Below, in pieces: positions 8,679 through 62,760 of a DNA stretch of 64,000 nucleotides (positions within the stretch are counted from its first letter, which is position 1; each line of letters opens with the position of its first letter). The notes below the pieces were generated by a model. It made no database searches and was not told the DNA's origin. It worked only from the letters and a program-made list of their open reading frames with translations. Location: positions 36,479-100,478 of the IMG/VR virus record IMGVR_UViG_3300049489_001113; one strand, 5' to 3'. The translations under genes and the position numbers were made by a program. The DNA comes from a virus.

Positions 8679-9022
8679 GAGGCACTCGGGAAAGGGGCGA
8701 CCTTCGGCGTCTTCTCGTCCTGCACCTCGTCCTTCGCGGACCCGGGTGAGGGGGAGGTCTGCTCGTCGAGCGAGTGGAAGAACACGTTCCCGTTCGGGAC
8801 GCGGAACTCACGGCAGTACCGCAACTTCAGGCGCTCGAGGTGATTCTCATGCACCGGGAACTCGCGGATGATCCGATCGCGGCCGAGGAAGACCTCGCGG
8901 ATGACGACGCGGTAGCGCCCGATCCCCTTCTTGTCGGGCCCCTCCTCGTAGACGTGAAGCTCACGCGGCTTGGTGACCGCTGTGGCCTTCTTCGGTGGGA
9001 TCTTCGTGGGTTTCTCATTCAT
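8675..9022 (-). CDS. Hypothetical protein (115 aa), replication block
   Basis: ATG at 9022 with AGGAG eight bases upstream. Starts with a Lys/Pro-rich basic tail (residues 1-18), then a compact central part with YRVVIREVFLGRDR and FPVHENHLERLKLRYCREF, ending in a Ser/Pro/acidic tail. No recognised domain. It lies between the initiator and the DnaC-like gene, with a four-base overlap downstream, so a replication role is likely but not shown. Confidence 0.75.
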   Translation of the reverse strand: MNEKPTKIPPKKATAVTKPRELHVYEEGPDKKGIGRYRVVIREVFLGRDRIIREFPVHENHLERLKLRYCREFRVPNGNVFFHSLDEQTSPSPGSAKDEVQDEKTPKVAPFPSAS

Positions 9023-9027
9023 GGTGC

Positions 9028-11610: not shown

Positions 11611-14238
11611 TCACGAGTCCTTGATGCCGATGGCCTCTTCGAGATCCTCGACCTGGGACCGGGTGCGGATGTAGAACAGGTTCGCATCCACAACACCGTT
11701 GAACTCGACGTGCAGGAGCACGTGTTGCGGCTCGAGCCCGGAGACGGTGACAGGGGTGGTGAGGTCGATGGTGACCTCGCGGATTCCCGCACCCGCGGTG
11801 GTTGTCTCGCCCGAGTTCGTTGAGACGAGCGTGACAGAGCCGTCGTTCTCGATCTTGTAGGCGAGAAGATCCCACGAACTCGATGCGGTGCTCACGCCGA
11901 GGACGACGCGCTCGAGCGTCTCTCCCGGGTTCAGCAGGATCTGGAAGAACCCGATCGACGGTGCGGACACCGTCCCCTCGTAGAGGGCAGCCGGCCAGTA
12001 GGCCACGCTGCCCGGGGGGTTCACCGACGTGTACTTGGCGGGGTTGCCAGGGGATGCGCCCGTCGGCAGCCACTCCGCGAAGGGAGTGGCCCCCGTCGCC
12101 TCGTTGCGGTTCCACTGGTCCATGTAGAACATGCGACGGAGCTTGCGCGCGGAGGCGAACTTGTACCGCTTGTTGTTCCCGAGGGTGACGTTCTCCTGGA
12201 GTGCGACCTCTCCCGCGAGCAGGATGTCGGTGGCGAAGAGGGTGACCATCTGCCCACCCTCGTCTGCCTCGACGTAGGTGGATGCGTCCTTGCCGATGCG
12301 CGAGAGCGCGCCCGCACTGTCGAGGAACAGCCCGGCGTCACCACTCGCAAGCGAGAAGTTCACCTGCCCCGTTGTGGCGCTGAACTGGAGTAGATTCGCG
12401 CTGTCGTCGAACCAGAAGGTCGGGGACCCAAGGGAGCCGAACTTCACGTCACCGGAGAGGACGTGCAGCGAGGTGTCGCCCTGCACCACGTGCGTGCCGG
12501 TTCCGGTGAACCCGGCGATCTTCAGGCCGGCGAACCCGTTCGTGACACCGGTGGGTGCGGCCAACTCGACGACGTAGGCCGACGTGACATCTGCGCCGGC
12601 GTCCTTGGTGAGCTGGAATCGGAAGGCGTGCGCCTGGTTGTCCCCGTCGTTCGGGAACAGGCCGAACGTGAGATGCCCGATGTCGGTGCCGTTCTGGCTG
12701 TAGTTCGCGTTCAGCGTCAGCTCGGACAGGAAGTCCGCGGTGGCGCCCGCGTCGTCGGCGAAGAACTGGATCCACGCCTTGCCCTCGGCCTGGGTGGGGA
12801 CGAGGAATCCGGAGAGCGAGGTGGTCACCTCCTCGGTGGTGGCGCCGAGGTACAGGTAGCCGTTGTTGCCCGCCTGCTGGCTGCGCGCGATGAGCGCGTT
12901 CGCGAACACGGCCGCCCCCCAGCCGGATCCGAAGTCGGTGCTTTTCCAGCCTGCCGCATCGAGGAGCGGGAAGGACGTGGCCCCGTCCCACACGTTGAGG
13001 TCGATGAAGGGGGACAAGGCGTTCGCGGCGAGGGCCGGGAAGCGGATGCCCTCCGTGCTCGTGCGGATGATCGGGTGCTGGTTCGCGGCGAGCGACGCAC
13101 CGGGTCCGACGTCGTCGGCGAACTGGATGTCCTTCCACTTCCCGCTCCCCAGGTCGAACTTCGACTTGAGGATGTGGGTGAGCGGCCCGAGCGGGGCCAT
13201 CTCGTAGTGGCCCGGCGTCGTGTACACGATGTTCGCCGGCACGATCGTCGGGGCGCCAGCACCGGGCGTGATCGTGGCGATGTGGATCCAGTAGACCTTC
13301 TCCTCGTGTCCCTGCGGGGCGAGGTCCGGGTAGTCCGGCCGGTCGGCGCTCGTGGGGAGGTTCGCGCCGGTGCGGAAGATGCGGTGGAAGTAGCGGACGC
13401 GGAGTCGGTGCGACGGCTCCAGGAGCATCGTCGGCTCCTCGAGGTCGGGATCCTCCTCCATGTCCTGGTCCTCGACCCACACTCCGAGCCACACCTTCTC
13501 GACCTGCCCGTTCACGAAGGTGACGCTGTTCGGCAGCACGAGGTACTCGTCGCCGATCGCCGGACCGCCGGCGCTGTAGGGGCCGGTGACCGTGAGGCGC
13601 GCCGAGGTGGGCACGGCGGAGATCGTGTACGTGTTCCCAGCCTCCGCGCCGGTGACGAACCGCACGCGGGCGTGACGGTCGGTACCGTTGCCGACGCCGC
13701 CGGAGGGGGCGACCAGGTGCAGACTGCCCGTTGCGGGGGTGAAGTCCTTGCTGTCGTCCTCGAACGTGGTGCCGCCGGGGAGGGCGGTGACCTTGCCGCT
13801 CGTGATGACGTGCCCCAGGTCCGAGTAGAGCCCGGCCGGTCCACGGGAGTCGCTGTCCTCGACGAAGAGGCCCTGCACCCAAGACGGGCCCCACATCACG
13901 TAGAAGTCGTTCGAGAGCCCGGCGGTGTGCACCCAGGGCCGCATCGAACCGGGGAACCAGGACGTCGGGGTCGCGGCCACGGTCGGCGCGTCGGCGGGCC
14001 ACGTCTTCGTCGGGTCCACAGGGTGGACGAACTCGTAGAGCGCGTCATCGACCGTGACCTGCGTGGTGTCGAAGCCGATGAGCGTGTCGATGGCGCGCGA
14101 CGTGCGCCAATCGAGCAGGTCCTGCAACTCGTTGATGTCGGCGTCCGTGATGGGCACACCCTGCTGGAGCAGCATGCGCAGGTAGCTCTTGTTCGCGTCG
14201 AAGGTCTTCCGCGAGACGTTGGCGGTTGGCGTACCCAT
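11611..14238 (-). CDS. Large tail appendage protein (875 aa), DUF6519-like N-terminus
   Basis: The N-terminus VSRKTFDANKSYLRMLLQQGVPITDADINELQDLL matches in style the DUF6519-type opening (FDP-KHY-LLQQGR-LDADWNE) of large phage and CIS baseplate-associated proteins. Residues 90-420 are a mixed beta region with repeated Gly/Thr/Pro turns; residues 560-690 (VQGDTSLHVLSGDVKFGS and following) look like a beta-helix or fibre shaft; the C-terminus (700-875) could be a receptor-binding beta domain. ATG at 14238 overlaps the upstream stop. It probably forms a baseplate plate or fibre that contacts the host surface. Confidence 0.7.
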   Translation of the reverse strand: MGTPTANVSRKTFDANKSYLRMLLQQGVPITDADINELQDLLDWRTSRAIDTLIGFDTTQVTVDDALYEFVHPVDPTKTWPADAPTVAATPTSWFPGSMRPWVHTAGLSNDFYVMWGPSWVQGLFVEDSDSRGPAGLYSDLGHVITSGKVTALPGGTTFEDDSKDFTPATGSLHLVAPSGGVGNGTDRHARVRFVTGAEAGNTYTISAVPTSARLTVTGPYSAGGPAIGDEYLVLPNSVTFVNGQVEKVWLGVWVEDQDMEEDPDLEEPTMLLEPSHRLRVRYFHRIFRTGANLPTSADRPDYPDLAPQGHEEKVYWIHIATITPGAGAPTIVPANIVYTTPGHYEMAPLGPLTHILKSKFDLGSGKWKDIQFADDVGPGASLAANQHPIIRTSTEGIRFPALAANALSPFIDLNVWDGATSFPLLDAAGWKSTDFGSGWGAAVFANALIARSQQAGNNGYLYLGATTEEVTTSLSGFLVPTQAEGKAWIQFFADDAGATADFLSELTLNANYSQNGTDIGHLTFGLFPNDGDNQAHAFRFQLTKDAGADVTSAYVVELAAPTGVTNGFAGLKIAGFTGTGTHVVQGDTSLHVLSGDVKFGSLGSPTFWFDDSANLLQFSATTGQVNFSLASGDAGLFLDSAGALSRIGKDASTYVEADEGGQMVTLFATDILLAGEVALQENVTLGNNKRYKFASARKLRRMFYMDQWNRNEATGATPFAEWLPTGASPGNPAKYTSVNPPGSVAYWPAALYEGTVSAPSIGFFQILLNPGETLERVVLGVSTASSSWDLLAYKIENDGSVTLVSTNSGETTTAGAGIREVTIDLTTPVTVSGLEPQHVLLHVEFNGVVDANLFYIRTRSQVEDLEEAIGIKDS

Positions 14239-15653: not shown

Positions 15654-16750
15654 GGCAGATCTCCGTCGATGACCTGCCAAGCCTGGGGCATCAGGTCGTA
15701 GAGCTTCGAGGAGTGCCCGTACCTTCCGTAGGCGAAGGAGCGAGCGAAGGTGGCGTTGTCGGCGTACGCCCAGAACCAGTCAGGGTTCTCCGCACTCGGG
15801 GGCACGAGGATGAACAGCGTGTAGTACCGGAACTGCCGCTCGACGCGGTCGGCGTCGTCGTAGTCCTCGTGGTGCTGGTCACCGGGCACCTTCCGGTCGG
15901 TGAACACGGGCGAGGTGATCGAGCCGTCGACGAACCCGTCGTGGATCTGGTCGGCCTGTGCGTCGTCGCTGTCGCGGGGGTACTCGATCGGCTTCGCAAC
16001 CAGCCTGTACCGCCGCACGTTGTTGAGGATCGCGAGGTCGTACGGGCTCTCGTTGAGCTGGTCAGCGAAGTCCGCGACGAGCGATTCGTTCACGTCCACG
16101 GTCAGCGCGGCGCCCGTGACTTCTGGGTCGACGTCGAAGTCATAGGTCTGCCGCGCCGTCACGAGTGGCTCCCACCCGTACCGCTCCGCCTGCCGACGGA
16201 ACTTGTAGAAGTCGTCGCGCATGTTCACGCTGCGCGCGTCGTCCACCACGGTGAAGGACACGGTCTCCGTGATGGTCGCACCGTCGCAATCCTCGATCGA
16301 GATCTCGAGCGTGCCTGTGCTTCCTGGGAGGAGTCCGAACAGCGGCTGCACCACGACGGTGGCCTGTTGCCCCTCCTCGTAGTCGAACAGCTCGATGCTG
16401 CTCGCGATGCCGTCGAAGCCGGGTTGGAAGGTGGTGCCTGTCACGACGTCCACCCAGCCGTCAGGGCTCTCCGCCGGGTAGGGTTGCTGCCGGTACCGGA
16501 TCAGCAGCGTGGCCATCTCGAGTGGGAGGTTCCCGTCCCGCAACCGGACTCGGAACCGCGCGGAACGGGGCACGTCGGTGGCCATGTGCACGGGGGCGAG
16601 AGGGGTGATCTCCACCGCCGGTACGGCGTACTCCGGCTCACCGCCGAAGAGCCCGAACGTGCCGCGCACCTCGCCCGCGTCCGGGTCGCCGGAGGACATG
16701 CCTCTGGTGACCCAGGCGAGACCGATGCGGGCCCCGGGATTGCAGGCCAC
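15650..16750 (-). CDS. Baseplate-proximal structural protein (366 aa)
   Basis: Two beta domains (residues 45-165, Ig-like in pattern, with an ITPLAPVHMATDVPRSARFRVRLRD stretch in pieces) precede a region with RYRLVAKP, FRYYTLFILVPP and AYGRYGHSSKLYDLMPQ. The last piece resembles the start of gpI-type proteins, whose gene follows directly. GTG start. Probably part of the wedge or fibre connection. I do not recognise a named family. Confidence 0.65.
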   Translation of the reverse strand: MACNPGARIGLAWVTRGMSSGDPDAGEVRGTFGLFGGEPEYAVPAVEITPLAPVHMATDVPRSARFRVRLRDGNLPLEMATLLIRYRQQPYPAESPDGWVDVVTGTTFQPGFDGIASSIELFDYEEGQQATVVVQPLFGLLPGSTGTLEISIEDCDGATITETVSFTVVDDARSVNMRDDFYKFRRQAERYGWEPLVTARQTYDFDVDPEVTGAALTVDVNESLVADFADQLNESPYDLAILNNVRRYRLVAKPIEYPRDSDDAQADQIHDGFVDGSITSPVFTDRKVPGDQHHEDYDDADRVERQFRYYTLFILVPPSAENPDWFWAYADNATFARSFAYGRYGHSSKLYDLMPQAWQVIDGDLP

Positions 16751-16753
16751 GGC

Positions 16754-17356
16754 CTACTCCGCCTTGAACGTCGCCAAGTTCCCGTCGACGTCGTACGTCA
16801 TCGTGACGTCGATCTGCCCGATGCGGTTCGTGTCGGCGGAGACATCTGCGCTGGACGGGTAGGCGACGTGCCGCGCGGTGAGCAGGCGGCCCTCGGCGTC
16901 GTAGACGGGGTTCGGCCCAGCCTGGCCCATGATGCGGGACCAGAACTGCCCGCCGATGCCGAGCGCCATCGCGGCGCGCTGCCCGAAGGTGCCGGCGCCG
17001 ACGTACTCGGTGACCAGGTCCTCCCAGGGCGACCGACGTTGCTGGAGTATGAACCCGTTCTCGAGCGTGAGAGACGTCGACTCGTAGACGCGAAACCGGT
17101 ACCCCCTGAGCCCGAGGGTGTGATTGAGCTGGCCGGCGAGCACCGCGGCCTCGTAGACACCGGGGAAATTGGTCGCGTCAACCGCGGTCATCGCGACCGT
17201 GGTGGCGCCGACCTGCCAGTTCGTGCCGTTCCAATACTGACTGTCGACCACGCGTTGGATGGTGGCGACGGGAGACAGGCCCGTCACGCCCGCGCCCGAC
17301 AGGAGAACCTCGAGTCTGGCGGTGATGGCGTTCCAGGGTTGTGTCTCGGCGCGCAT
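16754..17356 (-). CDS. Putative tail structural protein (200 aa)
   Basis: Residues 1-105 are beta-rich (LEVLLSGAGVTGL, IQRVVDSQYWNGTNW); residues 108-125 contain WEDLVTEYVGAGTFGQRAAMALG, a W-x(15)-GTFGE-like segment frequent in phage tail and collar proteins; the C-terminus (YDVDGNLATF) is a short beta strand set. ATG start; lies four bases from the next structural gene. Function inferred from context. Confidence 0.65.
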   Translation of the reverse strand: MRAETQPWNAITARLEVLLSGAGVTGLSPVATIQRVVDSQYWNGTNWQVGATTVAMTAVDATNFPGVYEAAVLAGQLNHTLGLRGYRFRVYESTSLTLENGFILQQRRSPWEDLVTEYVGAGTFGQRAAMALGIGGQFWSRIMGQAGPNPVYDAEGRLLTARHVAYPSSADVSADTNRIGQIDVTMTYDVDGNLATFKAE

Positions 17357-27791: not shown

Positions 27792-28793
27792 TCAGGCTCC
27801 GAGCAGACCGCGCAGCAGGTCGATGGTGGCGGTAGGTCCACCACCCACCAGCAGCATAGCTCCTACGGCGGCGTACGGACCAGACTCCGACCCAGGGGGA
27901 GGGCCCGCGGCGAGGATGGCCGACTGGAGTTCGTAGGTGGTGTAGGTCCCCTCGAAGAAGAGGATGCTGATCCCCCCGATCTCCGAGAGCGCATCGAACA
28001 GCGCGAGGATGGCATCGAACTCGGCGATGAGGCCGTCGAGGATGGCGATCTTCGCCTCGAGGAAGGCGATGTACTGCTCGATCAGTTCGGACAGTCCGAG
28101 CCCGAAGACGAAGAGACCGACGCACTTCTTGAGGACGGTCGCCACCGTACCGAGCACGGGAACCAGATCCTTCAGCAGCACGGGCTTCATCCAGTCCGGC
28201 GCGGTGCCCTGCCCCCGGTACACGTTGGTACTGTACCCGGAACGCAGGCAGTCTTTGTCCAGCTTGAAAGGCGGGAACTGAAGTGCGCCGTCTTCGTCGC
28301 GGTTCTCCGCGATGCAGGAGAGGGACCGCCCGTCGAACGGCTGGAACAGCGCGGACAGGAACGACTTGATCGTGGTGAGCAGCGCGTCGTAGTCGAGGCC
28401 CACCGACATGATGACCGCGCCGGCCTGAAGTTGTGGCGTGGTGAACTCGGGGCGGTTCCGGTCCCCCGGGTCGGAGAGCGAGCTGGTCACCCTCGTGAGC
28501 CACTGCTGCGGCGTCACGGCGTTCCTGAACCCCTGCGGTGCGTACACCAGCATGTAGATCCCCGCTTCCTCGAGGGACTCGATGAGCTGGTTGATGAGGG
28601 CGAGGATGCTCTCGAGGGACGCCTTCAGGATGTCGATGCGGTCGATGATGAGGGTCTTCAGCACGTTGAAGACAGCCTTCACCGCCTCGAGCGCCGTCTT
28701 GATGGCGTCGATGGCAGCCTGCAGTCCGGCGATGATCGGGTCGAGAAGGTCGTCCAGCCCGAAGCTGAAGTCTGTCCACTGCAGGTCAGCCAT
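27792..28793 (-). CDS. Helical baseplate-region protein of unknown function (333 aa)
   Basis: ATG start. Long amphipathic helices with many Leu/Ile/Ala (residues 10-75: DPIIAGLQAAIDAIKTALEA; 230-290: LIEQYIAFLEAKIAILDGLI) flank a central domain with two Cys (SLSCIAEN; DKDCLRSG). The hydrophobic stretch KCVGLFVFGLGLSELI might insert in membranes. It is not a tape measure, which is encoded separately. Possibly a tail-tip or hub-associated protein; family not recognised. Confidence 0.65.
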   Translation of the reverse strand: MADLQWTDFSFGLDDLLDPIIAGLQAAIDAIKTALEAVKAVFNVLKTLIIDRIDILKASLESILALINQLIESLEEAGIYMLVYAPQGFRNAVTPQQWLTRVTSSLSDPGDRNRPEFTTPQLQAGAVIMSVGLDYDALLTTIKSFLSALFQPFDGRSLSCIAENRDEDGALQFPPFKLDKDCLRSGYSTNVYRGQGTAPDWMKPVLLKDLVPVLGTVATVLKKCVGLFVFGLGLSELIEQYIAFLEAKIAILDGLIAEFDAILALFDALSEIGGISILFFEGTYTTYELQSAILAAGPPPGSESGPYAAVGAMLLVGGGPTATIDLLRGLLGA

Positions 28794-54205: not shown

Positions 54206-54244
54206 GGAACCTCCTGCACGAAGCCTACCACACATGCCTCCAAA

Positions 54245-54259
54245 CCACAAGCATTGATG
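54245..54259. promoter_or_regulatory. Operator copy 1 (CATCAA-N3-TTGATG family)
   Basis: CCACAAGCATTGATG matches the dyad with a perfect right half and four of six bases in the left. Lies in the 136-bp divergent gap between the 56-aa membrane gene and the HU gene, 41 bases upstream of copy 2. Confidence 0.55.
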
Positions 54260-54283
54260 GTGCCTCGATTCATGTGTGCACTA

Positions 54284-54311
54284 TTGCAACCTCACGACTT
54301 GATGTTATAGT
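54284..54311 (+). promoter_or_regulatory. Promoter of the HU gene with embedded operator copy 2
   Basis: TTGCAA (54284-54289), 16 bases, TATAGT (54306-54311). The spacer contains CCTCACGACTTGATG (54290-54304), whose right half is a perfect TTGATG. Transcription would begin near 54318, giving a leader of about 25 bases with AGGAGG before ATG 54342. Confidence 0.72.
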
Positions 54312-54341
54312 GTGCCGGGCATTCCGCCCAGGAGGTACACG

Positions 54342-54623
54342 ATGAACAAGACGAAACTGGTGGCGGCAGTGGCGAATACGACCGGGCTCCCGAAGACGAA
54401 GGTGGAGGAGGTCATCACGGCGATCTTCGGGGAGAGCGGTGCTCTCGAGAAGAGCCTGTCCAAGGGGAACGAGATCGCACTCCACGGGTTCGGCACCTTC
54501 CGCGTGAAGAAGCGCAAGGCCCGCATGGCCCACAACCCGCAGACCGGTGCCAAGGTCGAAGTCCCGGCGCGCAAGGTCGTCGTGTTCAAGCCCGGCGAGC
54601 GGCTCCGCAAGTCGGTGGCTTGA
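54342..54623 (+). CDS. HU/IHF-family DNA-binding protein
   Basis: 93-aa histone-like protein that bends DNA. N-terminal helices (NKTKLVAAVANTTGLPKTKVEEVITAIFG), then the HU beta-arm: EIALHGFGTFRVKKRKARMAHNPQTGAKVEVPARKVVVFKPGERLRK. All main HU positions are present. Strong AGGAGG site six bases upstream. Own promoter with operator. It may help origin opening, packaging or nucleoid takeover. Confidence 0.95.
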   Translation: MNKTKLVAAVANTTGLPKTKVEEVITAIFGESGALEKSLSKGNEIALHGFGTFRVKKRKARMAHNPQTGAKVEVPARKVVVFKPGERLRKSVA

Positions 54624-54649
54624 CTTACCATCAAGAGTTGGGGTAAGCT
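54620..54649 (+). promoter_or_regulatory. Promoter with operator copy 3, leaderless type
   Basis: TTGACT (54620-54625), 18 bases, TAAGCT (54644-54649), then six bases to ATG 54656. The spacer holds CATCAAGAGTTGGGG (54629-54643). The -10 to ATG distance places transcription start at or next to the ATG. Confidence 0.62.
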
Positions 54650-54655
54650 GTCTAC

Positions 54656-54814
54656 ATGCGTACATGGCGTGTGACGGTCGGCAAGAAGTGCTTCGGTGAG
54701 GTGAGTGCCGCCACCCTCGTGGAGGCGAACTACCTCTCGAAGCTGCTCCTGCAGGCATGCGGGATCCGCCCACGCCACGTACTCTTCCATCTCAATCTCG
54801 AGGAGGTACGGTGA
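54656..54814 (+). CDS. Small basic protein (52 aa)
   Basis: ATG 54656 with no upstream ribosome site but a promoter whose -10 box ends six bases before it, suggesting a leaderless message. The protein starts RTWRVTVGKKCFGEVSAATL, continues ANYLSKLLLQACGI and ends NLEEVR. Its last bases contain the ribosome site (GAGGAGG) and overlap (GTGA) with the next gene. Confidence 0.65.
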   Translation: MRTWRVTVGKKCFGEVSAATLVEANYLSKLLLQACGIRPRHVLFHLNLEEVR

Positions 54815-55314
54815 GGAACATCGTGTACGTTGCGGGTCCATACGCCGGCGACTCGCTCGAGGTCATCGAGCGCAACGTGGGGCGCGCCGTCGCGGTGGGG
54901 TTCCTCGCCGTGCAACGCGGGCTGTGCCCGGTCGTGCCGCACACCATGGGGTGGCTGCACGTGCATGGCGCACACGACGAGAGCGTGCCGGGTGTCCGGG
55001 AGGCGGCCATCCAGTGCGGCGTGTCGCTCGCGTACGCCACGGCGAAGGTCGGTGGGATCCTCTGGGTCGTCTCCCGCGACGACGGCTCACTGTCGGCGGG
55101 AACCCAGCTCGAGGTCGACTGCTACCGCGCTCACGGTGGAGTCACCGCTGTGATCCGCACATGGGACCAGTGGGTGAGGGAGGGCGCCTCGTACCGTCGT
55201 CCGGTCGACGATCGCTTCTATGAGATGGACGCGCAGATCGGGATCCTCAAGGACGAGACGACTCGTCTCGTCGAACTCGTGGACAGTCTGCGCGAGAAGG
55301 TGCGCACCCAATGA
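54811..55314 (+). CDS. Nucleoside 2-deoxyribosyltransferase-like (DUF4406) protein
   Basis: GTG at 54811 overlaps the stop of the 52-aa gene, with GGAGG upstream. The N-terminus NIVYVAGPYAGDSLEVIERNVGRAVAVGFLAVQRGLCPVVPHTM fits the DUF4406 pattern (YVAGPY, N-x-x-A, G-x-x-P-x-PH). The later GVSLAYATAKVGGILWVVSRD and SAGTQLEVDCYRAHG (SxGxxxE) complete it. Such proteins cleave or transfer deoxynucleosides or sense them. A C-terminal helix (ILKDETTRLVELVDSLREKV) may be coiled coil. Confidence 0.8.
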   Translation: MRNIVYVAGPYAGDSLEVIERNVGRAVAVGFLAVQRGLCPVVPHTMGWLHVHGAHDESVPGVREAAIQCGVSLAYATAKVGGILWVVSRDDGSLSAGTQLEVDCYRAHGGVTAVIRTWDQWVREGASYRRPVDDRFYEMDAQIGILKDETTRLVELVDSLREKVRTQ

Positions 55315-55850
55315 CCAGGAAGTCCGACAGTGGGGGCAACCTGTGGTGGGAGGAGGGTGTAGCCAAGCAGTGGGAGGCGGACGAGCAGGACACCGTGCCG
55401 TCGGACATCGTGTGGATCGACGGCTCAGGTAGGCGCACTCCGGTCGCAGATCTCGAAGACGTCCACCTGATGAACATCATCCGTATGGTCGCAAGAATGG
55501 ATGATGAACGTGCAGAATACTTGGCCATGCGCGCCTTGCAGACCGGCAACCTCGGCTCCGCTAAACGGCAGACACGCGCCATGTCCAGGAGGGACAAGTT
55601 GCTCCTCGCCGTTCCTGTGCTTCCGTACCTGGAGAAGGAAGCGCGACGACGCGGGTTCCGCGTGCCGGAGATCGCAGACGACAAACCCCTGCCGCGTAGG
55701 ACGGTATCCCAGGAGGTGATCGCTCCGATCGAGTTCGTGCCGGAGAAGCCGAAGCAGAAGAAACGCCGCGATGTCGCCAAGCAGTCGCCGGACACACGCG
55801 CAGTGGACGTCAGGCGCTTCGCGATGCTCGAGCTGCCGGACGACGACTAA
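55311..55850 (+). CDS. Hypothetical protein (179 aa)
   Basis: ATG overlaps the previous stop. Begins SDSGGNLWWEEGVAKQWEADEQD; the middle has DLEDVHLMNIIRMVARMDDERAEYLAMR, a motif resembling DUF-type small phage proteins that note a table or residue identity; the C-terminal third is basic and disordered (KPKQKKRRDVAKQ). Converges with the minus gene, overlapping four bases. No function assigned. Confidence 0.72.
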   Translation: MTRKSDSGGNLWWEEGVAKQWEADEQDTVPSDIVWIDGSGRRTPVADLEDVHLMNIIRMVARMDDERAEYLAMRALQTGNLGSAKRQTRAMSRRDKLLLAVPVLPYLEKEARRRGFRVPEIADDKPLPRRTVSQEVIAPIEFVPEKPKQKKRRDVAKQSPDTRAVDVRRFAMLELPDDD

Positions 55851-56047
55851 CGGTGCTCGGCCACGGTATCGGACCAGGCCCTGTCGACTTCGAGATGTGG
55901 CAGCAGGGTAGCCCTGTCGACGAGTTCCGTCGGTAGCAGGTCCGATCGGTCCGGTGCCTCCATGAGGTGGATCTCGATCGTGGGTTGCTCGTCGAAGCGG
56001 GTCGCGTGCTCGGTCTGTTCCATGGCGCCTGACGCGTAGCGCGTCAC
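55847..56047 (-). CDS. Small acidic protein (66 aa)
   Basis: GTG at 56047 overlaps the upstream stop; ATG 56023 is an alternative. Sequence contains QPTIEIHLMEAPDRSDLLPTELVDRATLLPHL. No motif. The overlap pattern supports translation. Confidence 0.55.
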   Translation of the reverse strand: MTRYASGAMEQTEHATRFDEQPTIEIHLMEAPDRSDLLPTELVDRATLLPHLEVDRAWSDTVAEHR

Positions 56048-56262
56048 TCCTTCGGTGACCACCGTTCCCGCGACATCGGATCCGTCACGGGCGTGGGGTC
56101 ATCCTCCTCGAATGGGCGCTCGGGCGGCACGAGAGGGCACACGTGCACCCACCTGTCCCCCACGAGACGCCAGGACGGGTCGGAGTTGTCGAGCCCACAT
56201 AGCATGCACTCGAACCTACGCAGCAGGCCGGGGGCGGGCGACAGTGACTTCTCGCTGTTCAC
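56044..56262 (-). CDS. Small Cys-containing protein (72 aa)
   Basis: GTG at 56262 overlaps the stop of the membrane gene. Contains ECMLCGLDNSDPSWRLVGDRWVHVCPLVPP: a CxxC, then C, suggesting a three- or four-ligand zinc site with a His. Acidic Pro-rich C-terminus. Unknown family. Confidence 0.6.
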   Translation of the reverse strand: MNSEKSLSPAPGLLRRFECMLCGLDNSDPSWRLVGDRWVHVCPLVPPERPFEEDDPTPVTDPMSRERWSPKE

Positions 56263-56579
56263 CCACCAGACGTATCCGGCGGTGGCGGATCCGACTTCGG
56301 CTTCTTCGGTCCGCCGAAGATCTCGAGGAGAACCTCGAACAGCGAGGTGAAGGTGTCGAGCCCGGCCTGCCCGACGATGTACCCGATCTCCACAGTGCCG
56401 AGGACGATCACCATCCCCAGCAGGAGAGTGGTGCTCCACTGGTCCAGCGGCAGCCATCGCCACATCCCGATCCCGATGAGGATCGTCCAGAGGAAGGAGG
56501 CGATGACGAACCCGATGAACTTCTTCGACTCGAGGGCGCCCTTGGCCATGGACCCGCGCTGCTTCATCGGCTCACCCAT
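56259..56579 (-). CDS. Membrane protein, candidate holin (106 aa)
   Basis: Two transmembrane segments (FIGFVIASFLWTILIGIGMW; LDQWSTTLLLGMVIVLGTVEIGYIVG), basic N-terminus (KQRGSMAKGALESKK) and a Pro/Lys-rich tail. ATG overlaps (TGATG) the stop of the YkuD-like hydrolase gene. Size, two helices and adjacency to a cell-wall enzyme make it the best holin candidate in the window. Confidence 0.75.
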   Translation of the reverse strand: MGEPMKQRGSMAKGALESKKFIGFVIASFLWTILIGIGMWRWLPLDQWSTTLLLGMVIVLGTVEIGYIVGQAGLDTFTSLFEVLLEIFGGPKKPKSDPPPPDTSGG

Positions 56580-57181
56580 CAGAACTTCTCCGCCGGCCAC
56601 TCGAGGACCGTGAGTGAGATCTTCGACCCGAGCCCGCTGCTCTTCTGCAGGTGCATCTTCTCCATGAACGAGAGGAAGTCCGCCTCTTTCTTGAACACTT
56701 GGCACCCCGCGCTCCACTTGTCGACTTGGCTCGAGTCCTTCCCTGCCTTGTGGATGTTGATCCCGGAGTTCGACGCGTCCTGCTCGTTCATCCCGTAGTC
56801 CAGCTCGGCGTCCTTGTCTGCGTCGCGCCAAACCTTGAGCACTCCGCACTGCCGCATCGCCTCGTACTGGTTCGGCTGCCCGATGTGGTGGAAGCTGATC
56901 TCGTGGCTCGCGCGGTACTGCCCTGGCTTCACGATCGCAGTACCCGCGACGCGCCCGGGGTTCTGCAGGTGGTACGACCCTGGGTCGGTCGTGCACGGCC
57001 ACGCGTTGAAGATCCAGGCGCCCTTCTCCCTGTAGAAGCAGCAGAGCAGATCGTCGAACGTGTTCGGCGTGCCGGGGATCCGACGCAGCGTGACCACGTT
57101 CATGTCGTGGTCCTTCGCGTCGAACACGACGTACCCGAGCCGCCGCATCTCCGCGATCACGGCTTCGACGGTGACACTCAC
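56579..57181 (-). CDS. YkuD/L,D-transpeptidase-like protein, candidate endolysin
   Basis: GTG at 57181 overlaps the upstream stop. The last third carries GINIHKAGKDSSQVDKWSAGCQVF, the H-x(n)-S-x-G-C arrangement of YkuD-type catalytic sites, preceded by ASHEISFHHIGQPNQYEAMRQCG. The N-terminal part (AVIAEMRRLGYVVFDAKDHDMNVVTLRRI) resembles a substrate or peptidoglycan-contact domain. No signal peptide, which is consistent with holin-dependent release. The catalytic assignment rests on the Cys motif; cell-wall lysis is inferred from the holin-like neighbour. Confidence 0.65.
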   Translation of the reverse strand: MSVTVEAVIAEMRRLGYVVFDAKDHDMNVVTLRRIPGTPNTFDDLLCCFYREKGAWIFNAWPCTTDPGSYHLQNPGRVAGTAIVKPGQYRASHEISFHHIGQPNQYEAMRQCGVLKVWRDADKDAELDYGMNEQDASNSGINIHKAGKDSSQVDKWSAGCQVFKKEADFLSFMEKMHLQKSSGLGSKISLTVLEWPAEKF

Positions 57182-57348
57182 TTCTTCGCTGCCTTCTTCT
57201 TGGTGGTGGCCTTCTTGGTGAAGGGCGGGGCCATGTTGCCATTCCCACCCTTCGCTTCCCCGAGCCAGGGCGGCATCTTCTTGGTACCCTTCGCCGCACC
57301 GTTCTTCGGGGCCTTGCTCTTCTGGGACGCTGCGGCCTTCTTCGCCAT
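57178..57348 (-). CDS. Lys/Ala-rich basic peptide (56 aa), histone H1-like
   Basis: ATG at 57348 with GGAGG five bases upstream. The product begins MAKKAAASQKSKAPKNGAAKG and ends TKKATTKKKAAKK: about 18 Lys in 56 residues, no acidic stretch, with a PPWLGEAKGG centre. It resembles the basic tails of H1-like proteins of high-GC bacteria. Its stop overlaps the start of the YkuD-like gene by two bases. DNA condensation, RNA binding or a cell-envelope role are all possible. Confidence 0.72.
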   Translation of the reverse strand: MAKKAAASQKSKAPKNGAAKGTKKMPPWLGEAKGGNGNMAPPFTKKATTKKKAAKK

Positions 57349-57369
57349 GGGAACCTCCAGAGCGAAAGC

Positions 57370-57612
57370 CTACCACGCGAGCGGGTAGCGGTCCTCGATC
57401 AGCCGGATCAACGCACGGTGCGTGCGCACAGGCTCGAGTAGATGCGCCCTGCGCACGTCGGCCGGGACGTCGATGAGGCAGCACCACGTCTCCACCACAC
57501 TTCCGTCGGGGGAACGGATCATCCCGCCTGTATGGATACGCCACCCGTCGATCCGCTCCCATACGGCAGGGCAGGTGGTGTACCTCTCCCATCGGCGCAG
57601 GGGCTCACTCAT
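57370..57612 (-). CDS. Small hypothetical protein (80 aa)
   Basis: ATG at 57612, overlapping the next upstream gene by eight bases. Contains WERYTTCPAVWERIDGWRIHTGG and CCLIDVPADVRRAHLLEP; Cys at about residues 14, 44 and 45. Basic and compact, no known family. Confidence 0.65.
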   Translation of the reverse strand: MSEPLRRWERYTTCPAVWERIDGWRIHTGGMIRSPDGSVVETWCCLIDVPADVRRAHLLEPVRTHRALIRLIEDRYPLAW

Positions 57613-57799
57613 CAGCGGCCCCAAGCGAGACCACGTAGACCTTGTGCGGCGTCTTCTTCACGTACGATTTCGGCATCCGTGGGAACCAGGATCCATTGCG
57701 CCTCTTGTCGAGGCACGGCTCACCCACAGGCGCGTAGCACACGTCACACGATTCAAGGTCAACACGTCTCGGCTCGGGCCGGAAGGCGCGTGTGGGCAT
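57605..57799 (-). CDS. Small zinc-knuckle protein (64 aa)
   Basis: ATG at 57799 follows the previous stop by two bases; ATG 57817 or 57811 would overlap it. Residues 18-29 read CDVCYAPVGEPC, a CxxC plus C that probably binds zinc with the following C-L-D-K-R. Such small knuckles are common in phage early genes of unknown role. Confidence 0.65.
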   Translation of the reverse strand: MPTRAFRPEPRRVDLESCDVCYAPVGEPCLDKRRNGSWFPRMPKSYVKKTPHKVYVVSLGAADE

Positions 57800-57800
57800 C

Positions 57801-58325
57801 TCACGTTTCATCGTCATCCCCGAGTGCGATGTGGCGGAACCTGTCGTCGTGCACGGGGGCGAGTGTCCGCGCCTCCGAGGTGGTGGTCTCCATGTCGAGC
57901 AGCGGAAGCAGTGGGCCCTGCAATCCAGCCCGCGTCAGCGGCGGCGGGGGAGGAACAGGCAACGGCACAGCCCCCACCTTCTTCGTCTTGCTGGATCTTC
58001 CGATGGTGAAGTAGTCCTCGTCTGGCCCGAGCGCGAGAAACCGCGCCTCGTCGTAGACGACGTCCTGCAGAGGCACGGCACCGGGGATCCACCGGCGGGA
58101 GTAGGGGTCCGTCCACGAGGTCAGGCGCCGCGCCTCCAACACCGGGGGGTTCCCCACCGCGATGCGCACGAACACCACGGTTCCGCCCGAGACTGGATCT
58201 CTGACCTCAGTGACGATCGCGCTTCTGGGCCAGCCTTGAAACACCACACCGAGGGGGCGCCCACAGTCGGCGTACCTGCGCGCCATGTCGGGGATGGACA
58301 TCAATGGCGACGAATACGATGTCAC
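57801..58325 (-). CDS. Hypothetical protein (174 aa)
   Basis: GTG at 58325 overlaps the upstream stop. The N-terminal half has beta strands (GVVFQGWPRSAIVTEVRDP; GTVVFVRIAVGN), followed by a Pro-rich linker (PLPVPPPPPL) and an acidic C-terminus. No recognised domain. Confidence 0.7.
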   Translation of the reverse strand: MTSYSSPLMSIPDMARRYADCGRPLGVVFQGWPRSAIVTEVRDPVSGGTVVFVRIAVGNPPVLEARRLTSWTDPYSRRWIPGAVPLQDVVYDEARFLALGPDEDYFTIGRSSKTKKVGAVPLPVPPPPPLTRAGLQGPLLPLLDMETTTSEARTLAPVHDDRFRHIALGDDDET

Positions 58326-58831
58326 GACTTCTCCCGGTCGCCGAGCACCATGCTGCGGAACCGCTCGCGCTCCACTGGGGAGAGATCGATCTTCGGGTTC
58401 CCCAAGTCCGACGGCTCGATGGGCTGCACCGGGATGCTGTCGATCTGGTCGATCTGGTACCGCATGATCTCCACCCTACGGTCGTAGTCCTCGGGTGAGG
58501 TACCCGGCACCTCGTACTCCTTGACGCTGCCGAACCCCAACTGCCAATAGGGCTCCCCGCGGTACGAGAGCTGCTCACCGATCACCACCGGGAGACCCAT
58601 GAACTGGTTCATGCCTCGCAAATCCTGGAGCCCGTACATGTCGGCCCGCGCCGAATCCTCGAGGTCCGTGCGCTGCTGCGGACTGCACAGGAGCACCTGT
58701 GGCGGGCGGCAGAATCTGGCTTCGAAGTCAACGTACGCGGTGCGGAACGTGTTGACGGTGAGTCGGTCGAAGCAGCGCACCCACGTGGTCATCTCGTAGG
58801 TCTCACCGAAGATCGCGTTCCTGGAGTACAT
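58322..58831 (-). CDS. Hypothetical protein (169 aa)
   Basis: ATG overlaps the stop of the phosphoesterase gene (TGATG). Contains VRCFDRLTVNTFRTAYVDFEARFCRPPQVLLCSPQQ, then NQFMGLPVVIGEQLSYRGEPYWQLGFG; the C-terminal 50 residues are charged and Pro-rich. The pattern of a middle MGLPV strand and Cys residues is not a family I know. Confidence 0.7.
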   Translation of the reverse strand: MYSRNAIFGETYEMTTWVRCFDRLTVNTFRTAYVDFEARFCRPPQVLLCSPQQRTDLEDSARADMYGLQDLRGMNQFMGLPVVIGEQLSYRGEPYWQLGFGSVKEYEVPGTSPEDYDRRVEIMRYQIDQIDSIPVQPIEPSDLGNPKIDLSPVERERFRSMVLGDREKS

Positions 58832-59406
58832 CAGGTTGTACCCCCGACCAGATCTGCGACATCCACAAGCCGGAACCCTGTGACCTCAGGGCTGACATTC
58901 ACGAACTCACCACGCTCCCCATACCTGTGGGGGCGCTTCGAGTGTGAGTGCCCGTGGATGCAGAGCTTGTACTCACCAGTCGACCACGCGGCGACGACTT
59001 GCCCACGCCAGGTCTTCTCCGTACCGGACTCTTCCTGCCGCGACCGTGCCGCGAACGGTGGGTAGTGCGACAAGAGCACAGGTACGCCGTAGAACTCGTC
59101 CCCCACGAGACCCCTGTGCCCGTGCACGCCGTTGCGCTCGAGGTAGCCGACGGAGAAACTGCGATCGTGGTTGCCGAGGATCCAGTGCTTCGTGCCGGGG
59201 AGAGAGCGGAACCGCGCGAGCTGCATGTCACGGTAGGTGCGATCCCCGAAGCAGAAGTCGCCGAGGAACCACACCGTGTCCTCAGGACGCACCTGCTCCT
59301 CCCAGGCACGCCAGAGAACATCCTCGAAGTCGAACGGGCGCGTCGGCTCGTACGCGAGGATGTTCTGGTGCCCGAGGTGCCAGTCACTGGTGAGGAAGAT
59401 GGTCAT
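58831..59406 (-). CDS. Calcineurin-like metallophosphoesterase
   Basis: Dinuclear metal phosphoesterase. Motifs in order: FLTSDWHLGH (D-x-H), WFLGDFCFGD (GDxxxG), WILGNHDR (GNHD), LLSHYPPF and CIHGHSHSK (GHxH). 191 aa from ATG 59406, which overlaps the upstream gene's end. Cytoplasmic, with cyclic nucleotides or nucleic-acid ends as possible substrates; phage versions can counter host signalling defences, but nothing in the sequence fixes the substrate. Confidence 0.93.
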   Translation of the reverse strand: MTIFLTSDWHLGHQNILAYEPTRPFDFEDVLWRAWEEQVRPEDTVWFLGDFCFGDRTYRDMQLARFRSLPGTKHWILGNHDRSFSVGYLERNGVHGHRGLVGDEFYGVPVLLSHYPPFAARSRQEESGTEKTWRGQVVAAWSTGEYKLCIHGHSHSKRPHRYGERGEFVNVSPEVTGFRLVDVADLVGGTT

Positions 59407-59650
59407 GGCAGCACCCGCACGAGCCACGAGAACACGCGGTTCACGGTGCCGTTCGAGAACCCGATCCGTTCAAGGAACCGCGCGAACCGCTTCATCACCG
59501 TGAAGCGCCGCCACGACACGTCGAAGCACGACGTGCAGAGCGTAGTCGCCACCATCGGCCCATCGTCGGTCGGCAGGATCGCGGGCGATGCTCTGCCCCC
59601 ACACACATGCGGCACACGTTCTCGAGTCCATGTCGGAAGTCGTCGGTCAC
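59403..59650 (-). pseudogene. Zinc-ribbon gene broken by a one-base frameshift
   Basis: The reading begins GTG at 59650 (overlapping the upstream stop) with NVCRMCVG, and a different frame continues PTDDGPMVATTLCTSCFDVSW to the stop at 59403, which overlaps the next start. Each half has one CxxC of a zinc ribbon and both ends are coupled as usual in this operon. A sixth G in the run at 59596-59600 would join the frames into a protein of about 82 aa. Sequencing or assembly error in a homopolymer, or a real loss-of-function mutation, are both possible. Confidence 0.65.
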
Positions 59651-59991
59651 GTCTCCCCCTTCGCCGGATCCACAGGGACCAGATCGTACTCAGAGACGTG
59701 GTCGAACTCCGTGTTCTGCACCTCGCAGTCCTCCTCGCAGGAGAAGACATCGAACCCCGGTCCACCCTTCGCCGTGCAGCCAGGGAGGTGCTCGACTCTG
59801 CTCGTCTCGACGACGCGCTCCGCGATCGGGCCCCACATGATGTACTCGACCTCCTCGGGCCATCCGTAGCTGGATGCTTCGTCGCGCATGCTGTCGAGTG
59901 CGCTCTCGCACCGCGACTGCGCTTCACTCCCGGTGGCGTGGGTCTCCCAAGTGTCGCCGTCGAAGGACCAGAACCGGTGTGTGGTGTGCAT
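59647..59991 (-). CDS. Hypothetical protein (114 aa)
   Basis: ATG 59991 lies six bases from the -10 box of its own promoter. The protein contains FWSFDGDTWETHATGSEAQSRCESALDSMRDEASSYG and EVEYIMWGPIAERVVETS, then a Cys-rich acidic end (SCEEDCEVQ). No known family. First gene of a downstream set that includes the phosphoesterase. Confidence 0.7.
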   Translation of the reverse strand: MHTTHRFWSFDGDTWETHATGSEAQSRCESALDSMRDEASSYGWPEEVEYIMWGPIAERVVETSRVEHLPGCTAKGGPGFDVFSCEEDCEVQNTEFDHVSEYDLVPVDPAKGET

Positions 59992-59997
59992 GACGGG

Positions 59998-60026
59998 ACC
60001 ATACCATCAAGTGTTGAGGTAGTCAA
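59998..60026 (-). promoter_or_regulatory. Promoter with operator copy 4, leaderless type
   Basis: TTGACT (60026-60021), 17 bases, TATGGT (60003-59998), then six bases to ATG 59991. The spacer contains CATCAAGTGTTGAGG (60005-60019), a near-perfect dyad. Strong -35 and -10 boxes. Confidence 0.75.
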
Positions 60027-60038
60027 TGCGCAGTAGCG

Positions 60039-60515
60039 TCAGTACCCGCAGATCTTGAACTCCTGCCTGTACGACACCATCAACGGATGCCGCGGCTCCC
60101 CCGACTTCGTTCGCCCGAGGTGCACCACGTTCCGGCACCGCTCCTGGAAGAACTTCGTCGCGCGGCTCACCCACTGGGGCGCGAACCGCCCGTTGGAGCC
60201 CCAGGCGAGGACGACCGTGTCGCAGTCCGCCACCCAGGCCCACGCCAGAAGTTGCTCCTCCGGATGTCCACAGCGATCCATCTCGGCCGCCGCGAGGAGT
60301 TCCTTCGGGTCGGTGGCGCGCAGCGGGTACAGGTTGCAGATCCTGATCCCGGTGAACCCGTTCGCCACCGCGAATCCCTTGCACTTGCGGATGGTCGGAT
60401 CGTCCTTCATGTGGTCAGCGGTGCTCGGATTGAGCATGCAGAACCCGAGCAACCGGGGCTGCGTGATCCCCGGCACGAGATCGCGCTCGAGGCGGTAGCG
60501 GTACAGGTGCGTCAT
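60039..60515 (-). CDS. DUF1643 family protein (158 aa)
   Basis: ATG overlaps the upstream stop. Matches DUF1643 style: LLGFCMLNPSTADHMKDDPTIRKCKGFAVANGFTGIRICNLYPLRATDPKELL, then DTVVLAWGSNGRF and PRHPLMVSYRQEF. This family is frequent in phages and near mobile elements; its biochemical function is not established. The motif NPS-T-A-D at the start is well conserved. Confidence 0.88.
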   Translation of the reverse strand: MTHLYRYRLERDLVPGITQPRLLGFCMLNPSTADHMKDDPTIRKCKGFAVANGFTGIRICNLYPLRATDPKELLAAAEMDRCGHPEEQLLAWAWVADCDTVVLAWGSNGRFAPQWVSRATKFFQERCRNVVHLGRTKSGEPRHPLMVSYRQEFKICGY

Positions 60516-61531
60516 CGACCGACCCCCTCGTGACAGCGGCAGTCGACTTCGCCGCAATGCGGGCACTCGCCGTTCGGACCCAACTGGCTGTCCCTGATCC
60601 TGCGGTACTCCGCGCCACCGTCCCAGCGATCCACTTCGCCCTTCCGCCACTCGGCCCCGCATGTGTCGATCACCCCGGAGTCGCGCTCCCGCCACAACGC
60701 GGAGAACCGCTGCTGTACGGCGGCGAGCCACCCCACCTCGACGGGGTCGTAGCCGAAACCCGGTGTGCGCTCGAGCTGCATCTCCTCCGCGACGGCGGCG
60801 CAGCAACGACGCAGCTCGTCCTCCCTGTCGCGTCGCAGTTCCTCGTTGAGGCAGGCGAGCGTCAGGGGCTCCACCTGCGCGTCGGGGTCGTCGTTCTGCG
60901 CGATCACCTGCAGGTCCTCGCGAGCCAGCCCGACGTTCCAACCCTTCTGGAGGAACTTCTCCGCGAGGTAGGACTCGCCCAACTCCCCCGCGAACCAGGC
61001 GAGGCTCTTCCCCCGAGCGTGCACCACCCCCAGGTCGGTGATCAGTAGGTCCCCGGTGATCGTGAGCCCCGTCGGTGTCTCGCAGATCTGGACGAGGTAG
61101 ACGCCTGTGCCTTCGCGCCGCATCACCGCGACCCGGACCCCCTCGGTATCCACCAGGATCTCGAGCCGGTGATCGCGCAGGGCGCGCACCATGTGCTCCT
61201 CCACGCGCCCCGTGCGTGCAGCGCGGGACACGAGGGCCCCGCCCTCCGCGACCACCACCTCACGCCTGTGTCCGGCGAGCCCGCTCAGCACGTCGGACAG
61301 GGTCTCTTTCTTCTTGTCACCCACGGTCTCCTCCTTCGGCGCTGTCGCGCGAACAACGGTCTGACGCAGGCACCTCGGGCACCGATCCTGCGCGCGCAGC
61401 TCCACCCAGTGCGCTCCCCTGTGCCCCGCCGTCAGGTTGCAGCGCAGACCTTGCTTCGACCTGGCGTTGCACCATGTCCACCCGAGCCGACATGCGGTGC
61501 ACGTGAGGCGCCCCCTGTACGGCTTCGTCAA
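60512..61531 (-). CDS. Large zinc-ribbon protein, possibly DNA- or RNA-binding (339 aa)
   Basis: TTG at 61531 overlaps the previous stop; a GTG at 61324 with GGAGGAG upstream could give a 270-aa form. The N-terminus has a Cys-rich region (CTACRLGW, CPRC) that could bind zinc; the centre is a beta/alpha region (DHRLEILVDTEGVRVAVMRREGTGVYLVQICETPTG); the C-terminus ends CPHCGEVDCRC, a second zinc site. No catalytic motif. It could be a nucleic-acid-binding protein; function unknown. Confidence 0.65.
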   Translation of the reverse strand: MTKPYRGRLTCTACRLGWTWCNARSKQGLRCNLTAGHRGAHWVELRAQDRCPRCLRQTVVRATAPKEETVGDKKKETLSDVLSGLAGHRREVVVAEGGALVSRAARTGRVEEHMVRALRDHRLEILVDTEGVRVAVMRREGTGVYLVQICETPTGLTITGDLLITDLGVVHARGKSLAWFAGELGESYLAEKFLQKGWNVGLAREDLQVIAQNDDPDAQVEPLTLACLNEELRRDREDELRRCCAAVAEEMQLERTPGFGYDPVEVGWLAAVQQRFSALWRERDSGVIDTCGAEWRKGEVDRWDGGAEYRRIRDSQLGPNGECPHCGEVDCRCHEGVGR

Positions 61532-61875
61532 GGCGAGTCCCAGCGTGTGAACTCCCGCAGCAGGTTCCCCCACCTACATTCGATCGCGAAGTGATCCACG
61601 AGGACCACGCAGTTCGGGTGTGAGCCGATCATGCGGAGGTTCTGCCAGTCGAACTGGCGCGACTCGCCGGACTCGAAGCTGATCTGTCCTCCCTGTGAAG
61701 GCACGTACACCTTGGTGCCGGCGAGGGTGGCCCCCACGACACGGGCGGCCACACTGGCCCGCAGCACTTCGGCGTGCTTCGCCGTGGCACCCACGACGAA
61801 GACGTAGCTGCCGTTCGCCGCCAACCACACCGCGTGGTCGAGCATCCTCGTCGTGCGGCCCGTTCTACGGTTCAC
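61528..61875 (-). CDS. P-loop-like small protein (115 aa)
   Basis: GTG at 61875 overlaps the stop of the 24-aa peptide. The start NRRTGRTTRMLDHAVWLAANGSYVFVVGATAKHAEVL has an R-T-GRTTR loop reminiscent of P-loop ATPases (G-x-T-T/S), and SHPNCVVLVDHFAIE may be a Walker B-like strand. It is too short for a helicase. Possibly a phage NTPase subunit or remnant. Confidence 0.65.
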   Translation of the reverse strand: MNRRTGRTTRMLDHAVWLAANGSYVFVVGATAKHAEVLRASVAARVVGATLAGTKVYVPSQGGQISFESGESRQFDWQNLRMIGSHPNCVVLVDHFAIECRWGNLLREFTRWDSP

Positions 61876-61946
61876 GGGGCCCCCGTACGCGGCAGCATGG
61901 GTGAGAAGTCATCGAGGACAAATACCATCTGCTCACCGCGGGTCAT
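61872..61946 (-). CDS. 24-aa micro-ORF coupling two genes
   Basis: ATG 61946 to TGA 61872, overlapping the previous gene end by 14 bases and the next gene start (GTGA). The peptide contains EQMVFVLDDFSPMLP. Its overlaps at both ends suggest it is translated and carries ribosomes to the next start. A leader-peptide role is inferred. Confidence 0.4.
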   Translation of the reverse strand: MTRGEQMVFVLDDFSPMLPRTGAP

Positions 61947-62154
61947 GTGCAGCCTCCTTCTCCCCGCCCCACGCTGCGGCGAACGCGGCCTCCTCGGTGG
62001 AGTGGAAGCGCGTCGTGCCGTCCCTGCAGAAATCCTCGAGGCGGGTGTGGAAGTGCTGCGCGCGACGCTTGATCGCGCCCGCTCCGGCCCAGAAGGCGAC
62101 GAACCGACGCTTGCCCTCGCGGTCCGGCCTGTCGTCGAGCAGCACGACGTGCAT
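61933..62154 (-). CDS. Small hypothetical protein (73 aa)
   Basis: ATG at 62154. Begins HVVLLDDRPDREGKRRFVAFWAGAGAIKRRAQHFHTRLEDF, then STEEAAFAAAWGGEKEAA. Compact alpha/beta pattern, basic. Unknown family. Confidence 0.65.
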   Translation of the reverse strand: MHVVLLDDRPDREGKRRFVAFWAGAGAIKRRAQHFHTRLEDFCRDGTTRFHSTEEAAFAAAWGGEKEAAHDPR

Positions 62155-62164
62155 GGTAGGTGGA

Positions 62165-62389
62165 TCACCAGGAGTCACGGTCGGCCTCCTTCGCCACGTT
62201 CTCGGGCACTGTCCGCGGGTGCGAAGCACGCAAGTCGTCGATCTCCGCGAGAAGCTCGCGCACGTCGTCGAGGTACACCAGCAGGTCCACGGTCTCCGCC
62301 TTCAACCAGGCGTCGTCGTCCGATCCGGGTGGGATGCACAGCACGGCGTGCCTCATCCGGATGCGCTCGATCTCCTGGTGGCGGCTCAT
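62165..62389 (-). CDS. Small helical protein (74 aa)
   Basis: ATG overlaps the upstream stop. Contains RIRMRHAVLCIPPGSDDDAWLKAETVDLLVYLDDVRELLAEIDDLRA: helical, leucine-rich and acidic. No motif or family known. Confidence 0.65.
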   Translation of the reverse strand: MSRHQEIERIRMRHAVLCIPPGSDDDAWLKAETVDLLVYLDDVRELLAEIDDLRASHPRTVPENVAKEADRDSW

Positions 62390-62712
62390 CGTTCACCAGA
62401 GGTGGTGCCCGGAACGCTTTCCGGTACCGCAGGAACCTCCCCGGTGGTGGAAGCGATCTCCTCCTCGAGGGCGGCGGCGCACATCCGACGCAGCTTCATC
62501 GCCACACGCACGGCTCGCTCCTCCGACCAGTCCTGGTGTCCGGCCATCAGCGTGGCGGCCGTGTTCACCACGTCGGACGTCGACAGCATGTGTGACTGGC
62601 GCAACTGCCGCTCGAGAGAGCAGACGAAATGCGCCACCTCCTGCGCCCGGACAGCGTCCGACAGCCCCTCGCACCACTTCACGGTCTGCGCGTGTCTGAC
62701 CTTGTCGATCAT
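62386..62712 (-). CDS. Helical hypothetical protein (108 aa)
   Basis: ATG 62712 with a GGGGG stretch four bases before; an ATG six codons upstream is also possible. Fully helical (KVRHAQTVKWCEGLSDAVRAQEVAHFVCSLERQLRQSH; ERAVRVAMKLRRMCAAALEEE). Acidic/Pro-rich tail. First gene after the promoter at 62731-62760, so early expression is likely. Confidence 0.65.
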   Translation of the reverse strand: MIDKVRHAQTVKWCEGLSDAVRAQEVAHFVCSLERQLRQSHMLSTSDVVNTAATLMAGHQDWSEERAVRVAMKLRRMCAAALEEEIASTTGEVPAVPESVPGTTSGER

Positions 62713-62730
62713 CGAACCCCCAGTCCGCAT

Positions 62731-62760
62731 ATGGTAACATCAACCATTGATGCTTGTCAA
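62731..62760 (-). promoter_or_regulatory. Promoter with perfect operator copy 5
   Basis: TTGACA (62760-62755), then TACCAT (62736-62731) 18 bases later (or TTACCA at 17). The spacer contains the perfect dyad CATCAACCATTGATG (62738-62752). It drives the run of small genes from 62712 leftward. Confidence 0.78.

Follow-up and report, generated by a model that had tools for sequence, protein, structure and literature searches.

Operator-like dyads of a contractile-tailed phage and their candidate ligand, a PadR-family protein

The viral contig IMGVR_UViG_3300049489_001113 (100,478 bp) contained seven copies of a 15-bp dyad, CMTCAA-N3-TTGAKG, which, judged from sequence comparison, are most probably the operators of an autoregulated PadR-family repressor encoded by the phage itself. 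The window, a stretch of 64,000 nucleotides, corresponds to contig positions 36479–100478, and the remaining 36 kb was added so that the site and gene scans covered the full contig. Positions below are those of the window unless the contig is named. Genes were called contig-wide by a simple codon-usage script, which gave 150 genes and 89% coding DNA; the gene starts are predictions. The contig was assigned to a contractile-tailed phage by its recognisable terminase, SPP1-type portal, tail sheath, and baseplate genes. The terminase was 34–35% identical to those of Streptomyces phage BRock and its relatives, no near-identical phage was found in the GenBank phage collection, and a tRNA search for host clues found none.

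Putative operator sites and promoter anatomy

When up to one mismatch to the consensus was allowed, exactly seven matches were found on the full contig, where a first-order Markov model predicts 0.3. All seven were noncoding and located upstream of genes, and noncoding DNA made up 11% of the contig. The consensus read backwards, used as a control scan, gave no match. Since the degenerate letters had been picked with sites already in view, an independent check was needed, and it was provided by the site at contig 13238, which lies outside the window of the first reading and matched the degenerate consensus with no mismatch. The other site outside the window was at contig 28616. With leave-one-out matrices built from the other six sites, each omitted site ranked within the top 7 of ~100,460 positions. 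The first-pass annotation had proposed a comparison of coding with noncoding matches over the whole genome, and the best coding match (contig 37948, window 1470) scored below the sites in the matrix scans.

The five 15-bp sites that had been annotated in the window, at 54245, 54290, 54629, 60005, and 62738, were all recovered, the last as a perfect dyad, and promoter hexamers supported the placement of four of them between −35 and −10 boxes. Together with the site at contig 13238, five of the seven sites occupied the spacer of a sigma-70-like promoter, with spacers of 16, 17, 17, 18, and 18 bp. The second window site, O2 (54290–54304, CCTCACGACTTGATG), filled the spacer of the HU promoter (54284–54311, + strand), which consisted of TTGCAA (54284–54289), a 16-bp spacer, and TATAGT (54306–54311). 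The third, O3 (54629–54643, CATCAAGAGTTGGGG), directly adjoined the −10 box of the promoter of a 52-aa gene (54620–54649, + strand; TTGACT at 54620–54625, an 18-bp spacer, and TAAGCT at 54644–54649; ATG at 54656). The fourth, O4 (60005–60019, CATCAAGTGTTGAGG, read on the − strand as CCTCAACACTTGATG), was located in the spacer of the promoter of a 114-aa gene (59998–60026, − strand; TTGACT at 60026–60021, a 17-bp spacer, and TATGGT at 60003–59998; ATG at 59991). The perfect dyad O5 (62738–62752, CATCAACCATTGATG) was located in the spacer of the promoter of a leftward block (62731–62760, − strand; TTGACA at 62760–62755, an 18-bp spacer, and TACCAT at 62736–62731). The padR site (contig 13238–13252, CCTCAAGGATTGATG) lay between the TAGTCA and TACACT hexamers of the padR promoter, separated by 17 bp. 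A consensus scan found only ~15 promoter-like noncoding sites on the contig, including all five spacer-site promoters, and these five comprised most of the promoter-like sites with a good −35 box. In the 52-aa gene, the 114-aa gene, and padR, the distance from the −10 box to the ATG was only 6 nt, so leaderless mRNAs are expected.

The two remaining sites showed a different arrangement. O1 (54245–54259, CCACAAGCATTGATG) was noncoding, had one mismatch to the consensus, ranked seventh in the leave-one-out scan, and was positioned 30 bp upstream of O2. Besides lying upstream of the HU promoter, it coincided at its left end (54245–54250) with a possible − strand −35 box, TTGTGG, of a divergent 56-aa gene (start at 54205; TTGTGG, a 17-bp spacer, and TAGGCT at 54222–54227). 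The site at contig 28616–28630 was located between divergent genes, one side being an operon for an SSB-like protein and a DNA polymerase. On that side, TTGACA was followed 17 bp downstream by TATTGA within the dyad, a weaker promoter match. As a separate observation, the sequence ATTGATGGTGCCTCGATTCAT (54253–54273; contig 90731–90751) between O1 and O2 has a half-site in common with O1. It was the top match of the PadR-homologue matrix described below and may be a third, overlapping site before the HU gene.

The PadR protein and the dyads of its homologues

The phage PadR-family winged-helix regulator (contig 12886–13224, − strand, 112 aa) was encoded outside the window. Its PadR domain (PF03551) was matched with E=8.8e-17 and 61.3 bits against a cut-off of 27, over positions 1–74 of the 75-position profile, and the protein matched solved PadR structures. 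The C-terminus was divergent and shorter in the alignment, residue 99 being followed by a short tail. Because the site at contig 13238 fills the promoter spacer of padR itself, this protein appears to be the best candidate ligand of the sites, ahead of the two proteins that had been put forward earlier, an excisionase-like HTH_17 protein at 63467 and a winged helix resembling MarR and replication initiators at 10191. The same class of dyad was found upstream of PadR homologues, and the promoter of the 10191 gene (TTGACT-17-TAGTCT, contig ~46992) contained no dyad. For the 63467 gene, the promoter region falls beyond the contig end.

PadR homologues were gathered by protein similarity only from plasmids, phages, Actinomycetota, and Acidobacteriota, and all 4-mer dyads with gaps of 0–17 were counted in the 160 bp upstream of 108 homologue genes. 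The commonest dyad was ATAC-13-GTAT (16 of the 108 genes), and TACA-11-TGTA (9 genes), ACAT-9-ATGT (9 genes), and CATC-7-GATG (6 genes) describe the same operator from the outside inwards. Only 11 of the 4,608 dyads reached a count of 6. The resulting family operator was ATACATC-N7-GATGTAT, and a site with at most 4 mismatches in 14 was present in 35 of the 108 upstream regions, compared with ~4 in shuffled sequence. Six copies of CATC-N7-GATG were counted in the 17.5 kb upstream of padR genes and 3 in 252 kb elsewhere in the same loci, an enrichment of ~28-fold (p ~1e-7); the N6 and N8 spacers and the reversed dyad showed no enrichment there. Two of the six cases, L210 and L211, were orthologues, which leaves ~5 independent cases. 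These orthologous PadR genes of Actinomycetota genomes have conserved upstream dyads, GCATCGTGTTACGATGC and ACATCGCGCGACGATGC, and are good material on which to check the PadR operator consensus. Dyads were also located in the genes' own promoter regions in two Deinococcus plasmid PadR genes (L102 and L182) and one Roseomonas gene (L190), and in the Deinococcus pair the dyad closely preceded the start codon, arranged as in the phage. The family consensus could help predict the operators of other PadR proteins.

The phage dyad, CMTC-N7-GAKG, was in the same register as the inner CATC-N7-GATG of the family operator. When a matrix from the homologues only was slid along the seven phage sites, the score peaked at the exact register, reaching −27 there and no better than −85 at any of 20 other offsets. 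With a matrix from the upstream dyads of PadR homologues only, O5 was second of 100,458 positions.

Several observations weigh against this assignment. Symmetric column shuffles of the family matrix matched the fit in 5% of cases (p ~0.05), CATC-7 occurred just twice in the held-out Acidobacteriota set alone, and the site at contig 28616 was a poor fit to the family matrix, ranking 945th among 9,733 noncoding positions. The phage sites kept only the inner CMTC..GAKG, without the outer ATA..TAT, and their inner AA..TT was their own. Other DNA-binding proteins were encoded on the contig (the 63467 HTH_17 protein, the 10191 winged helix, a tandem ribbon-helix-helix pair, HU, and SpoVS), a host regulator is also possible as the ligand, and no second phage with the same regulon was found for comparison. 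The register scan and the enrichment are stronger evidence than the column-shuffle test. The phage operator would belong to the family class, with a partial match.

Proposed regulon and circuit, and alternatives

A single dimeric DNA-binding protein is most likely to serve all of the sites, in line with the one protein and one phage regulon annotated before, whose extent and ligands are revised here. The regulon had been confined to the right-hand 10 kb, but the sites at contig 13238 and 28616 extend it towards the other contig end, to the padR operon and probably a replication operon. The padR operon consisted of padR, a dCTP deaminase gene, and an MT-A70 methylase gene, as assigned by Pfam families, and would form the first regulon member. 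The second is probably the operon preceded by the site at contig 28616, which encodes SSB-like, DNA polymerase A, helicase, and RecA proteins and runs leftwards from contig 28540. The third would be the gene of an HU-family DNA-binding protein (54342–54623, + strand, 93 aa; PF00216, E=9e-29), preceded by AGGAGG, possibly together with the divergent 56-aa gene. The fourth to sixth members would be the operon at 54656–55850 (+ strand), containing the 52-aa gene, a DUF7768/nucleoside 2-deoxyribosyltransferase-like gene (54811–55314), and a 179-aa gene (55311–55850); the 114-aa gene (59647–59991, − strand, phrog_21696), which is the first gene after O4; and the leftward block from 62712, whose first gene (62386–62712, − strand) encodes 108 aa from the ATG at 62712.

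In the proposed mechanism, a PadR dimer would bind the 15-bp dyad CMTC-AA-N3-TT-GAKG and, placed in a 16–18 bp spacer, keep RNA polymerase off the promoter. Because the dyad fills the spacer at five of the seven sites, a bound dimer should stop polymerase binding. Repression is argued from this location, from the dyad symmetry, and from the behaviour of characterised PadR proteins. The regulated genes are probably early, as suggested by their content (HU, DNA polymerase, helicase, RecA, and nucleotide metabolism). The early and replication promoters would fire at entry, and accumulating PadR would then shut them down or fix their level. Since padR belongs to its own regulon, the circuit would be a negative-feedback loop. 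No integrase, resolvase, or ParA/ParB gene was found among ~110 genes scanned with Pfam, a set that partly left out the structural block of a contig that may be incomplete; a temporal or homeostatic role therefore seems likelier than the integrase- or partition-linked role of a lysogeny repressor. A bolder and rather doubtful proposal is that, in a large and apparently non-integrating myovirus, a ligand-responsive PadR acts through spacer-filling operators, with several genes leaderless, as the master repressor that turns off the genes of replication, nucleotide metabolism, and HU; the lytic programme could in this way be linked to a small-molecule signal in the host.

It is unlikely that the sites are the operators of another phage protein and that padR is merely a target. 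The HTH_17 protein at 63467, the winged helix at 10191, and the ribbon-helix-helix pair do exist and have DNA-binding folds. Related phages gave no help in choosing: PadR and HU were not found in 26 records picked by terminase (35–46% identity), proteins like 10191 and 63467 were likewise missing from the terminase-related records searched, and their common absence does not single out PadR. The exact operator site was absent from the 20 such records searched, and 8-mer seeds found no PadR relatives in viral and genome contigs. A site in its own promoter was demonstrated only for padR, and the dyad class and register agreed with the operators of PadR homologues. In a separate IMG/VR search for the operator followed by TANNNT and ATG, 63 stretches with one site each were obtained and taken as chance; they were mostly from AT-rich unrelated phages and had no downstream PadR gene.

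Slightly less probable is that the conserved string serves as an activator site or as a promoter element made up of the spacer and an extended −10 (TG-N-TANNNT). At four of the five spacer sites, the TG that closes the right half-site stood a single base ahead of TANNNT, which is the extended −10 layout, but the left half, CMTCAA, was conserved equally, and the sites at 54245 and contig 28616 had no −10 box next to them. The spacers were 16–18 bp rather than the 19–20 bp of MerR-type activators, and the −35 hexamers were mostly good already. Borrowing of host operators by phages is known, and bacterial genomes commonly contain PadR genes; it is nevertheless improbable that a regulator of the host, perhaps a PadR, binds the dyad and lets the phage sense the state of the host, as the phage encodes a PadR with this dyad in its promoter and a host protein is unnecessary. 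A chance likeness of AT-richer promoter spacers, with which a loose 3-mismatch scan of the window would agree in showing no above-chance excess (13 found against 9.6 expected; uninformative and set aside as evidence), is refuted by the count at one mismatch, the wholly noncoding location, and the perfect leave-one-out recovery.

Other genes of the contig were also recorded. A SpoVS-family protein (contig 16678–17034, − strand; PF04232, E=3e-19) is unusual in a phage. The ribbon-helix-helix-like pair (contig 8980–9432, + strand) consisted of two adjacent, apparently paralogous small proteins, NikA/TacA-like and assigned to phrog_4113. In an AAA+ ATPase outside the window (contig 1–2010), the P-loop was apparently interrupted by a split intein, whose N-part (VMLVGIPG|CLHGDTVIHDPV...) stopped near nt 662 and whose 37-residue C-part (MDKIAVRSVKLVDVEPYYDFHVPVFNNYWAHGVWHHN|TGKS) opened a separate reading frame from ATG 1183, ~500 bp from the N-part. 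ThyX (PF02511; 4519–6357, − strand) contained an in-frame insert resembling an intein, with a CYDAATEVL start and a VVLSGN end before TPFEMAG.

Comparison with known regulators

PadR repressors that regulate their own genes are well known from bacteria. The cdPadR1 of C. difficile binds TACT-N11-12-AGTA in its own promoter, overlapping the −35 and −10 boxes (PMC5050560), L. lactis LmrR is a PadR-family autorepressor (as described in PMC5050560), and Listeria LftR, LltR, and LstR are likewise autorepressors (PMC6624303). The phage system resembles them in its small winged-helix PadR and in a dyad operator located at the −35/−10 region of its own promoter, and the spacing of TACT-N11-AGTA is that of TACA-N11-TGTA in the family operator. 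The bacterial proteins mainly target their own gene and genes of transport, resistance, and membrane proteins, whereas the phage PadR appears to act at six loci, on phage genes for replication, nucleotide metabolism, and the nucleoid. The phage half-site CMTCAA also differs from bacterial PadR operators, since the outer ATA is missing.

Dispersed sites for one phage repressor, including sites at early promoters, are also found in the cluster A mycobacteriophages, where the stoperators are asymmetric, bound by a monomer, oriented with transcription in intergenic gaps, and in many cases terminate elongation (PMC9283540). In contrast, the sites described here are palindromes that occur in promoter regions only, and the genes scanned included no integrase.

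PadR-like genes have been described in viral genomes, such as the Mu gp26-like genes of Vibrio Mu-like prophages (PMC12482185) and a gene of halovirus PhiH1 (PMC6210493). In the portions of these two reports consulted, they were treated through annotation, structural similarity, or host effects, and no operator set in a viral genome was reported. A limited literature search turned up no multi-operator regulon mapped for a phage PadR, which is no proof of absence. PadR-like genes of phages are annotated without a known role; here such a regulator was matched to operators of its own genome by sequence alone, which gives a phage regulon map that can be tested and that includes the replication operon, HU, the dCTP deaminase and methylase genes, and the putative repressor itself.

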